Positions 52,072-54,305 of a stretch of DNA of 64,000 bases are shown here, piece by piece (position 1 is the first letter of the stretch; each line of letters starts with the position of its first letter). Made by a program: the position numbers and the translations under genes. A model generated the notes under the pieces. That model worked only from the letters and a program-made list of their open reading frames with translations. It made no database searches and had not been told where the DNA came from. The stretch comes from Carboxylicivirga sediminis (GTDB lineage Bacteria; Bacteroidota; Bacteroidia; Bacteroidales; Marinilabiliaceae), in the NCBI RefSeq assembly GCF_018156225.1, contig NZ_JAGTAR010000001.1, positions 372,001 to 436,000 on the forward strand, read 5' to 3'.

Positions 52072-52107
52072 CTGAAAACCAAACGGGTTTTTAGACAAAT
52101 TAAAAGA

Positions 52108-52177
52108 GTGAAGTAACTTTGCAACTAGAGCATCCCGTTATGCAATACGGGAAGGTCGGAGTTTCAAACTACTCACA
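52108..52177 (+). pseudogene. Decayed tRNA-like sequence
   Basis: A shortened D-arm (CTAGAGC), a stem CCCGT/ACGGG enclosing an 8-nt loop TATGCAAT, then GGTCGGAGTTTCAAACTACTC with a standard T-loop TTCAAAC but mismatched T-stem. GTGAAGTA and TACTCAC give an imperfect acceptor. It lies exactly where another tRNA gene would sit, between two intact ones. Confidence 0.5.
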
Positions 52178-52234
52178 TTATCTCAACAACAAACGCGTTG
52201 TGAGAAAGAATTAAAAATATTGAAAGTAATTGAT

Positions 52235-52317
52235 GGGGAGATACCAAAGTGGCCAACTGGGGCGGACTGTAACTCCGCTGACTTATGTCTTCGTAGGTTC
52301 GAATCCTGCTCTCCCCA
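52235..52317 (+). tRNA. tRNA-Tyr (anticodon GTA), copy 1
   Basis: An 83-nt class II tRNA: GGGGAGA/TCTCCCC acceptor, stem GCGGA/TCCGC around CTGTAAC, a long variable arm (TGACTTATGTCTTCGTA) and T-loop TTCGAAT. CCA not encoded. Confidence 0.97.
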
Positions 52318-52324
52318 CAAAATT

Positions 52325-52488: not shown

Positions 52489-52514
52489 AAGCCATTCAAC
52501 TGAATGGCTTTTTT
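52489..52514 (+). terminator. Terminator inside the tRNA cluster
   Basis: AAGCCATTCA pairs with TGAATGGCTT, followed by TTTTA, directly after tRNA-Gly. The last tRNA-Tyr may therefore rely on readthrough or its own promoter. Confidence 0.7.
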
Positions 52515-52531
52515 ATTGAAATTTTTCAGTT

Positions 52532-52614
52532 GGGGAGATACCAAAGTGGCCAACTGGGGCGGACTGTAACTCCGCTGACTTATGTCTTCGTAGGTTCGAA
52601 TCCTGCTCTCCCCA
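52532..52614 (+). tRNA. tRNA-Tyr (anticodon GTA), copy 2
   Basis: Identical over all 83 nt to copy 1. Its 3' half, from TAACTCCGC onward, and the terminator behind it are repeated 536 bp downstream. Confidence 0.97.
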
Positions 52615-52658
52615 CAAAAGAGGTTCTGCTAGCAATAGCAGAACCTTTTTTTGTATCC
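52567..52658 (+). repeat. 92-bp direct repeat, left copy (tRNA-Tyr 3' half plus terminator)
   Basis: Matches 53103-53194 at 90 of 92 positions. It begins in the anticodon loop of tRNA-Tyr copy 2 and ends just after the terminator T-run. Confidence 0.95.
52619..52653 (+). terminator. Terminator of the tRNA cluster
   Basis: AGGTTCTGCT pairs with AGCAGAACCT over a 6-nt loop and runs into seven T. Confidence 0.92.
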
Positions 52659-52717
52659 TATCGCCTCTGTCCAGCCATATTCATTTAGTATTAATTATAA
52701 TTTAGTATCTTATAAAT

Positions 52718-53020
52718 ATGGACTACTACATTTATATACTTTACTCTAAGGTGGCTGATAAGTATTATGTTGGTTACTCATCCAATCCCCAAAAGAGATT
52801 GAAAGAACATAATTCTTACGAGAATAAATCCAAGTTTACTGCAAAATATCAACCTTGGAATTTAAAAGCACACTTCTTAGTTTCACAAACTATTGGCGAA
52901 GCCATGAGAGTAGAGCGTTTTATTAAACAACAAAAAAGTCGACATTTTTTGGAAAGGTTAATAAGTGAACATCATAATGCGGAGTTCATTAATGATTTGA
53001 TTAAGAAGGTCATTGGCTAG
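52718..53020 (+). CDS. Small GIY-YIG nuclease
   Basis: A 100-residue protein consisting of a GIY-YIG domain alone: YYIYILYS in place of the first motif, YYVGYSSNPQKRLKEHN containing the second motif and the catalytic Arg, and E (about residue 67, in EAMRVERFIKQQKSR) as the metal-binding Glu. It belongs to the small UvrC/UPF0213-like single-domain group, often duplicated in Bacteroidota; the target is unknown. AT-rich compared with its neighbours. It sits between two 92-bp direct repeats derived from tRNA-Tyr, suggesting it came with, or caused, a local rearrangement. Confidence 0.9.
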   Translation: MDYYIYILYSKVADKYYVGYSSNPQKRLKEHNSYENKSKFTAKYQPWNLKAHFLVSQTIGEAMRVERFIKQQKSRHFLERLISEHHNAEFINDLIKKVIG

Positions 53021-53102
53021 AGCATACTATTTAATCTTAGAGAAATAGAGAGGTACAACAACACCTTTGTCTCCTGCCAACTAAGGTCCCGAAACTTCGG
53101 GA

Positions 53103-53150
53103 TAACTCCGCTGACTTATGTCTTCGTAGGTTCGAATCCTGCTCTCCCCA
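53103..53150 (+). pseudogene. Partial tRNA-Tyr (3' half)
   Basis: Identical to the last 48 nt of the intact tRNA-Tyr gene except possibly at its very end, but the 5' half is replaced. The preceding sequence has GCCAACT, as in the intact gene, then a hairpin TCCCGAAACTTCGGGA instead of the anticodon arm. No anticodon, so not functional. Confidence 0.85.
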
Positions 53151-53156
53151 CCAAAG

Positions 53157-53189
53157 AGGTTCTGTTAGCAATAGCAGAACCTTTTTTTG
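53157..53189 (+). terminator. Duplicated terminator
   Basis: AGGTTCTG pairs with CAGAACCT plus one G-U pair, followed by seven T. It would end transcription of the GIY-YIG gene. Confidence 0.85.
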
Positions 53190-53241
53190 TATCCCTTATT
53201 TAGATTTTATTTGCTACTTTTAAGCAAACTAAGCAATTATC

Positions 53242-53856
53242 ATGTTTGTCAAGCTCTACCCGGAAAATCCGAACGAAAAAGAAATTCACAAAATAGTTGA
53301 TGTGCTGCGCAATGGCGGTATCGTTATTTACCCTACCGACACCATCTACGGCATTGGCTGCGATATTAATAACGCTAAAGCTGTAGAAAAAGTGGCCCGC
53401 ATCAAGGATATCAACCTGAAAAAAGCCAACCTCTCGTTCATCTGTTACGATCTGAGTCATATTTCAGATTTTACAAAGCCCTTAAACAACCATGTGTTTA
53501 AGCTGATGAAAAAACACCTGCCGGGACCTTACACCTTTATATTACCAGCTAACAGCAATGTACCCAAGCTGTTTAAAAACAATAAAAAAACCATTGGTAT
53601 CAGGGTGCCGGATAATAATATTATACGTGAACTGGTAAAAGAACTGGGTAACCCTATCCTATCCACTTCGGTGAGGGATGAAGATGATGTGATAGAATAT
53701 ACCACCGATCCTGAACTCATTTATGAGAAATTTGCCGACCTGGTGGATGTGGTGATTGATGGCGGCTATGGCGATAACGAACCTTCAACCATTATTGACT
53801 GCACCAGCGATGAACTGGAAGTTGTAAGGTATGGAAAGGGAGAAATCGAACTCTAG
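53242..53856 (+). CDS. Sua5/YciO/YrdC family protein (threonylcarbamoyl-AMP synthase type)
   Basis: A 204-residue protein of the YrdC fold: GGIVIYPTDTIYGIGCD, KDINLKKANLSFICYDLSHI, KKHLPGPYTFIL and IGIRVPDN, the family's nucleotide-binding core, then STIIDCTSDELEVVRYGKG. Members make threonylcarbamoyl-AMP for t6A37 in tRNAs reading ANN codons, though the shorter YciO subgroup is not proven to do so. Nearby tRNA-Thr genes would be substrates. Upstream lies the duplicated tRNA-Tyr fragment. Confidence 0.88.
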   Translation: MFVKLYPENPNEKEIHKIVDVLRNGGIVIYPTDTIYGIGCDINNAKAVEKVARIKDINLKKANLSFICYDLSHISDFTKPLNNHVFKLMKKHLPGPYTFILPANSNVPKLFKNNKKTIGIRVPDNNIIRELVKELGNPILSTSVRDEDDVIEYTTDPELIYEKFADLVDVVIDGGYGDNEPSTIIDCTSDELEVVRYGKGEIEL

Positions 53857-54096: not shown

Positions 54097-54305
54097 CTAT
54101 GGTTATAGATAATTTAAATACCTAAGTAAACAATTATCATTTAGTTATAGCTAGTTTGTATACCATTTTAAATAATTACCATTTGGTTATAGCTAATTTA
54201 AATACTATTTGAAGCAATTACATTTTAGTTATAAAATGTTTTGATACTATTCTGAACAAATACATATTGTTTGACACTATTTACATTTTAGCTTAAATCA
54301 ATTAC
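54097..54305. repeat. Tandem array of ~42-bp AT-rich units upstream of an HTH gene
   Basis: Units begin at 54097, 54138, 54180, 54221, 54263 and 54284 (41, 42, 41, 42, 21 and 22 bp). The fuller ones follow CATTTAGTTATAGCTAATTT then a spacer containing ATACYATTT and AATTA. Units diverge but align without much shifting. Confidence 0.8.

Follow-up and report, generated by a model that had tools for sequence, protein, structure and literature searches.

A tRNA-Tyr gene with a duplicated 3' half

The stretch of DNA analysed here (the window) spans 64,000 nucleotides (nt) of the Carboxylicivirga sediminis genome (contig NZ_JAGTAR010000001.1, positions 372,001 to 436,000) and contains two transfer RNA (tRNA) genes for tyrosine, copies 1 and 2 (anticodon GTA), which are called by ARAGORN and are identical in sequence. 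Copy 2 is followed by a small GIY-YIG nuclease gene and then by a second copy of its own 3' part. The gene is framed by a direct repeat of 92 nt with 2 mismatches (90/92; repeat positions 50 and 63), located at 52567-52658 and 53103-53194, that is, 536 base pairs (bp) from start to start. In the left copy, the 3'-terminal 49 nt of tRNA-Tyr copy 2 come first and are followed by the terminator. The 444-bp spacer between the repeats has a GC content of 33.3% (42.6% for the window) and, on both strands, a sole open reading frame (ORF) of at least 60 amino acids (aa), which lies at 52718-53020 on the + strand and encodes 100 aa. The repeat, its distance and the spacer with a single, AT-rich GIY-YIG gene had been described in an initial annotation made from the sequence alone, and all three hold; the duplicated tRNA part, put there at 48 nt, is one nucleotide longer. 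An addition to that account is a perfect hairpin, TCCCGAAACTTCGGGA (53087-53102), directly before the right repeat copy. It is preceded by GCCAACTAAGG (53076-53086), which resembles GCCAACTGGGG of tRNA-Tyr. Together, these features probably make up a site-specific, homing-type insertion element that restores its host gene and whose sole gene encodes the small GIY-YIG nuclease. The features are as follows.

52235-52318, + strand: tRNA-Tyr copy 1, uninterrupted and without an element (ARAGORN; identical to copy 2)
52532-52615, + strand: tRNA-Tyr copy 2, the host tRNA (ARAGORN; comparison with the empty allele of the congener G007)
52532-52566 and 52567-52615, + strand: old 5' part of the host tRNA-Tyr and the element-borne 3' part joined to it (G007 comparison)
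52567-53102, + strand: inserted element of 536 bp (repeat register and empty allele in G007), in the order new tRNA 3' half, terminator, ORF, tRNA remnant, hairpin
52616-52651, + strand: element-borne terminator copy with 16-nt arms and a T run (inverted repeat)
52718-53020, + strand: GIY-YIG nuclease gene, 100 aa (ORF; PF01541, 5.1e-15; predicted model with a predicted local distance difference test score, pLDDT, of 94)
53076-53086, + strand: GCCAACTAAGG, probable remnant of the tRNA 5' side (alignment: 7 exact bases, then AAGG for GGGG)
53087-53102, + strand: hairpin cap TCCCGAAACTTCGGGA, the right end of the element
53103-53151, + strand: old (ancestral) tRNA-Tyr 3' half, now a pseudo-tRNA (with its flank 136/138 against the empty allele of G007)
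53152-53194, + strand: old terminator and end of the repeat (repeat; G007 comparison)

A consensus terminator scan lists the stem of 52616-52651 on the - strand only. In the 5.8-Mb assembly, the window element is the only place with the pattern TCCCGARNCTTCGGGA. The GIY-YIG ORF stands alone in the insert, which has no integrase gene, and no inverted repeats bounding the insert appear in the repeat listing. Further, an Rfam scan of 52500-53260 (E-value up to 1) returned only tRNA and two sub-threshold unrelated families, and no group I intron RNA.

Empty and occupied alleles in the genus

Congener loci were fetched through the right-hand neighbour gene (53242-53856), which we take to be YrdC-like and for which 13 of 14 genomes, counting that of the window, gave a match. 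In G007 the product of this gene is 100% identical to that of the window, and the locus carries the same Thr-Tyr-Thr-Gly-Tyr cluster with one terminator and no GIY-YIG gene; it is thus the relative with an empty site for which the initial annotation had suggested a search. The right repeat copy and its flank match this empty allele at 136/138 positions without a break. The left copy matches at 88/92, being identical to it over the tRNA bases, and the match ends where the repeat ends. Because the right copy runs unbroken into the ancestral flank and the left match stops at the repeat end, the insert can be placed at 52567-53102; by this comparison, the right copy is ancestral and the left copy was brought in. 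The allele comparison shows that the inserted DNA supplied a substitute 3' half with its terminator, so restoring the tRNA, and left the old half behind. This bears out the initial proposal of a minimal element, integrating or homing, by which one copy leaves the tRNA whole. Within the fetched stretch beside the YrdC-like gene, a GIY-YIG gene was seen in none of the 12 congeners; their tRNA cluster ends in tRNA-Tyr in seven, has only the earlier tRNA-Tyr in two and lacks a tRNA-Tyr in the stretch in three.

Two further loci behave in the same manner. Beside a presumably kinase-like gene, a pair of tRNA-Asn genes has GIY-YIG genes behind it in G001, G006 and G009; eight genomes have none there, and three more are unscored due to a contig end or no tRNA in the stretch. 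The copy in G006 lies 312 nt from its tRNA and has no repeat. The tRNA-Phe gene beside what we take to be a cobT-like gene has an occupied allele in G004 and an empty one in G006, G008 and G009, the remaining best matches having no tRNA in the stretch. Comparison within this one genus therefore shows empty and occupied alleles at three loci (Tyr, Asn and Phe).

Distribution and linkage to tRNA genes

Related genes occur in 11 of the 14 genomes of the genus, several of them as tandem units spaced about 370-560 bp, between which lie further tRNA 3' parts. A profile (A1) built from 14 proteins found matches in 41 of 71 genomes of a family sample (E-value up to 1e-8) and in 124 of 296 genomes, representing 75 of 140 genera, of a phylum-wide sample (E-value up to 1e-18), the phylum being Bacteroidota as judged from named relatives. 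Arrays of five copies at intervals of 315 or 450 bp are present in G306 and G364, both assembled as single contigs, and the layouts compared show that units often stand in tandem. Chance or assembly artefact was rejected as an explanation, as the layout recurs in many genomes and the arrays are found in these single-contig assemblies.

Among the matches listed, 109 loci (29 from the search itself and 80 from fetched regions) were classified by their neighbouring tRNA. A same-strand tRNA lies directly upstream in 72, directly downstream in 16 and in neither position in 21, two of which (L140 and L156) are contig ends that, by eye, start in a tRNA 3' end. Hence 88/109 abut a same-strand tRNA; opposite-strand tRNAs within the same distances number zero. 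The hosts of the 72 tRNA-upstream loci cover 18 anticodon types, and a tRNA repeat lies behind the ORF in 58 of them. This is the survey of repeat-flanked GIY-YIG genes that the initial annotation had called for, and its outcome agrees with the linkage proposed there. So many related genes at other tRNA genes point to a widespread kind of mobile element, and by sequence the window element is a member of a class of related insertions at many tRNA genes. A named collection returned 20 loci; a tRNA immediately precedes the gene in Natronoflexus pectinivorans (Asn), Roseivirga echinicomitans (Val) and Patescibacteria or Microgenomates (Leu, Ser, Ile); five loci of this collection (L237, L238, L244, L245 and L246) have no tRNA at all.

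The loci with an intact tRNA downstream form a mirror type. A tRNA 5' part precedes the ORF with an alignment score of at least 30 in 15 of 18 such loci, a count made without a shuffle control; by eye, the 5' part is followed by a hairpin in most of them, and in 12 of the 18 the end of the ORF lies within the tRNA. Because it is the 5' half that is duplicated in the mirror type, the linkage is to the tRNA gene and not, as first proposed, to tRNA terminators. Comparison of both types shows that the carried replacement for the cut-off half (the 3' half and terminator in the window, the 5' half in the mirror type) keeps one tRNA whole, and that the displaced half persists as a pseudo-tRNA, usually capped by a hairpin.

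The possibility that the gene is phage, plasmid or viral cargo was rejected on searches with the window protein: it had no match in phage records or in viral contigs, and matched 3 of 72,556 plasmid records, from Legionella at 30-35% identity (listing level).

The hairpin and the insertion point

The tRNA-upstream loci gave 80 distinct usable junctions; 35 listed loci were unusable, some being repeats of one place. A perfect hairpin with arms of at least 6 nt, ending at most 4 nt from the tRNA 3' part, was present at 57 of the 80 junctions compared with 25 of 1600 shuffles (1.6%). When 58 hairpins were compared, using a slightly longer stretch than in the junction count, the outer pairs were mostly T-A, C-G and C-G, and pairs 4-7 occurred in several forms through paired changes. 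Directly beyond the hairpin, on its far side, at least 7 exact bases of the same tRNA were found in 40/58 cases versus 48 of 986 comparisons with other tRNAs, and in two tRNA-Val relatives the pseudo-tRNA is nearly full length. Elements at the same tRNA tend to share their insertion point, which is 59/60 in 9 of 12 tRNA-Asp cases and 48 in 8 of 16 tRNA-Met cases, with a ninth at 49 of a tRNA longer by one base.

The nuclease and its phylogeny

The 100-aa protein matches the Pfam GIY-YIG family (PF01541) with an E-value of 5.1e-15 and 56 bits against a cut-off of 22.6 bits. Residues Y6, Y17, G19, R27 and E66, among those invariant in 14 relatives, presumably have a catalytic role. The predicted model (mean pLDDT 94) comprises one GIY-YIG domain and two short C-terminal helices, and no separate DNA-binding domain is evident in it. 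Profile matches to solved structures were best for 1zg2 (7.7e-14) and 1ywl (7.3e-12), followed by chains of SLX1, a nuclease of branched DNA (1.1e-6 to 2e-5), and I-TevI (0.046); Foldseek ranks 1-12 were all of UPF0213 or SLX1 type, with an E-value below 0.001 for 1zg2 only. By family sequence and predicted fold, the protein thus belongs to the GIY-YIG superfamily and is UPF0213/SLX1-like. One PHROG, a homing endonuclease, matches it at 3.2e-4 over 36 residues. The PADLOC models UzuA and PDC-S14 gave weak matches of 25-38 residues inside the GIY-YIG domain, and a defence-system gene was rejected on the grounds that these matches are weak and partial.

The ratio of nonsynonymous to synonymous substitution rates (dN/dS) was below 1 in 13/13 scorable gene pairs, with a median of 0.095; pairs were drawn from 32 chosen loci and scored if at least 75% identical with dS above 0.1. 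Such ratios show purifying selection on the gene and therefore speak for constraint only, acting on a predicted nuclease. In a tree of 185 rows and 87 columns (85 of 182 inner branches open), tRNA-linked rows account for 129 of 167 in the main group versus 0 of 18 in the other (Fisher 5e-11, a guide only because the rows came from profile searches and not from random sampling). The host-tRNA label changes 49 times on the tree compared with 91-105 times in 200 label shuffles (129 rows, 29 labels). In this tree, lineages mostly stay with one tRNA even where they span several host families, but switches occur: the Tyr element of the window is placed among Asn elements.

Relatives at genes other than tRNA

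Most of a subgroup of related genes that stand at unrelated protein genes, without tRNA repeats, falls into one fork of the tree (24 rows, 4 of them tRNA-linked). This fork contains genes that lie inside short inverted repeats within protein genes, for example ACCCCGTGAGATA...TATCTCACGGGGT. The interrupted genes include tyrosine integrases (PF00589, PF13495), PD-(D/E)XK genes (PF13366) and a 23S-intervening-sequence protein (PF05635, below its cut-off). Further ones we take to be a second 23S-intervening-sequence gene, a RAYT-like gene and an antitoxin-like gene; three fragments of the second 23S-intervening-sequence gene and the RAYT-like gene gave no Pfam match. Inverted arms of at least 11 bp were found in 10 of 22 scored fork loci (L182 and L198 being near-copies) against 7 of 125 tRNA-linked loci. 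With the best of 50 shuffles, a length of 11 was attained in 4 fork loci and 6 tRNA-linked loci, which puts the arms of the tRNA-linked loci at about shuffle level. The initial annotation had held that GIY-YIG genes at unrelated sites without repeats would speak against it: such a subgroup does exist at protein genes, and the majority is linked to tRNAs.

Individual loci add to this picture. In L016, L079, L148, L151, L169, L182, L196 and L210, GIY-YIG genes lie inside perfect 11-14 bp inverted repeats that interrupt protein genes, tyrosine integrases among them. What look by eye like ORF-less copies with similar ends are present nearby in L048, L166 and L235. At L216 and L225, the GIY-YIG gene is preceded by a truncated copy of the first codons of a presumably rfbB-like gene, which runs into a hairpin, and followed by the full gene. 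At L188 and L189, it directly precedes the RNase P RNA, and a flanking 19-bp inverted repeat at L188 takes in the 5' end of the RNase P RNA gene.

In the window's own genome, three more relatives were seen, on contig C56 after tRNA-Met, on C100 after tRNA-Trp and on C44, the last being partial and lying at the contig start before a tRNA-Val-like 3' part. Within the window, about 110 bp between tRNA-Thr and tRNA-Tyr copy 1 (52073-52181) are absent from G007; by eye they hold a tRNA-like stretch with a hairpin-like TCCCGTTATGCAATACGGGA and are perhaps an ORF-less relic of the same kind. The best tRNA alignment score of 52073-52234 is 20, within the range of shuffles (mean 17.6, maximum 24). Beyond the YrdC-like gene lies an AT-rich tandem repeat (54102-54233, period 42, 3.1 copies).

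How the element may spread

A homing element would be expected to insert at a fixed site and to have relatives with the empty allele, and both are seen here. We infer a drive of the following kind. The nuclease would promote the spread of its gene by inducing recombination where DNA without the element carries the same tRNA gene, and repair would copy the element with its flanks into the empty allele, amounting to homing without an intron. Arrays would grow by further insertion or by unequal recombination between the repeats. For the aiming step, our preferred though less certain proposal is that the hairpin between the two tRNA stretches pairs with the empty allele to form a branched heteroduplex, the SLX1-like nuclease cutting the branch at the hairpin; the restored tRNA would then escape cutting. 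Since tRNA-Tyr copies 1 and 2 are both uninterrupted, a plain sequence-specific enzyme would face its own targets, and aiming by homology is therefore favoured with modest confidence. Immunity through recoding of the restored half was rejected, as the left copy, the right copy and the empty allele are identical over all 49 tRNA bases.

It should, however, be noted that several observations weigh against this interpretation. By the test that found a tRNA repeat behind the ORF in 58 of the 72 tRNA-upstream loci, the other 14 lack one, and 23 of the 80 usable junctions lack a perfect hairpin of at least 6 pairs. The window's own remnant scores 0 in the strict far-side test, and two of the 13 gene pairs have a dN/dS of 0.93. 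The tree follows the host family too (50 changes versus a shuffled minimum of 72; 118 rows, 16 families), and vertical descent therefore explains part of the tRNA fidelity. A homing element should leave no intact target in the genome it occupies, and here the target persists in the identical copies 1 and 2; these intact targets weigh against classical homing and leave the aiming step hypothetical. Insertion and restoration are shown by the comparison of alleles; cutting, the drive and the role of the hairpin are inferred.

A different aiming step within the same element class is a tentative alternative, its likelihood forming part of that given to the homing element as a whole. Here, a classical sequence-specific homing endonuclease would read the tRNA gene round the insertion point and cut empty alleles, the hairpin merely spoiling the site in the displaced half. 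That lineages hold to one tRNA and that insertion points are fixed would fit, as would the free-standing GIY-YIG homing enzymes of phages, with SegB encoded beside tRNAs (PMC13096335). However, presumed sites remain intact in the same genome (copy 1 and the restored copy 2), the predicted protein has only one GIY-YIG domain and a short helical tail, and the covarying hairpins exceed what site disruption would need.

A bolder extension of the favoured homing reading, speculative and on balance unlikely, would be a class of gene drive that chooses its target by homology without a DNA-binding domain. A gene fragment interrupted by a hairpin would pair with the uninterrupted gene, as a DNA heteroduplex or with the transcript as guide, a minimal, structure-specific GIY-YIG nuclease would cut the branch formed at the hairpin, and repair would copy in a cassette that rebuilds the essential gene in the same event. 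To change target, such a bacterial element would have to acquire no more than another gene fragment, and this would account for the 18 anticodon types as well as the relatives beside RNase P RNA and protein genes.

It is rather improbable that the cassette is a passive passenger, moved by host recombination through the duplicated tRNA half, with a nuclease that serves the host in repair, in defence or in guarding tRNA attachment sites. The near-perfect repeat of about 90 bp is a ready recombination substrate, and both the UPF0213/SLX1 fold and the weak UzuA and PDC-S14 matches would suit such a function. However, those matches extend over just 25-38 residues, all inside the GIY-YIG domain, and patchy presence in the genus, tandem copies and tRNA fidelity better fit a selfish element.

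Still less probable is transposition by analogy with IS200/IS605 elements, which transpose as single strands with hairpin ends. The nuclease would recognise the hairpin end and the tRNA pieces would be captured target. This would accommodate the conserved, covarying hairpin at one end, the relatives inside short inverted repeats in protein genes and the ORF-less copies seen by eye nearby in three loci. On the other hand, the tRNA elements have a hairpin at one end only, arms of at least 11 bp flank the ORF in tRNA-linked loci at about shuffle level, and the rebuilding of the host gene is not explained by transposition itself. Further, we know of no GIY-YIG enzyme that joins DNA ends.

The alternative raised in the initial annotation, a third tandem tRNA-Tyr that decayed after the nuclease gene landed between copies, would account for the scrap of 5' side in the pseudo-tRNA and its nearly full-length counterparts in the two tRNA-Val relatives, but is very improbable given that the G007 empty allele has two tRNA-Tyr genes and not three, that no GIY-YIG gene is present in the fetched stretch of the 12 congeners with the neighbour gene, that the right repeat is unbroken into the ancestral flank and that the same layout recurs at many tRNAs.

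Comparison with known systems

If the homing reading is correct, a very small mobile element resides in tRNA genes of many Bacteroidota and some Patescibacteria and inserts into these essential genes while leaving them unbroken; the alleles compared here show it both present and absent. Such an element would connect GIY-YIG nucleases of the repair type (SLX1, UPF0213) with selfish homing elements and account for many of the small genes annotated as 'GIY-YIG nuclease' and of the tRNA fragments in annotated genomes. It would also be a compact system for studying target finding by a nuclease that has no evident DNA-binding domain. The class had seemed undescribed at the outset, in keeping with a search of the open-access literature (subscription papers and preprints being outside its scope) in whose top-ranked results no chromosomal GIY-YIG element linked to tRNAs was described for bacteria.

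Group I introns with GIY-YIG homing endonucleases sit at conserved sites of tRNA genes. In contrast, no intron RNA was found in the Rfam scan of the element, and its host gene is rebuilt by duplication rather than splicing. Integrative elements with tyrosine recombinases, which insert at tRNA 3' ends, likewise carry a replacement 3' end while the old end stays; however, the insert has no integrase, and the mirror type restores a 5' half. The SLX1 and UPF0213 proteins (YhbQ, YazA) provide the nearest solved structures by profile and fold, but the genes described here belong to insertions that duplicate host-gene ends.

The closest analogue found is the phage protein SegB. T-even phages carry the gene for this GIY-YIG homing endonuclease beside tRNA genes, tRNA-Tyr loci are amplified in tandem together with the gene, and the 5' end of the tRNA is homologous to the 3' end of the gene (PMC13096335). 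The last feature is akin to the 12 of 18 mirror-type ORFs that end inside the tRNA. Unlike SegB, the genes here are chromosomal, the window protein being without a match in phage records and viral contigs, and they encode single-domain proteins. The elements are further set apart by a duplicated half of the host gene and a hairpin cap, features that do not appear in the passages on SegB (PMC13096335).
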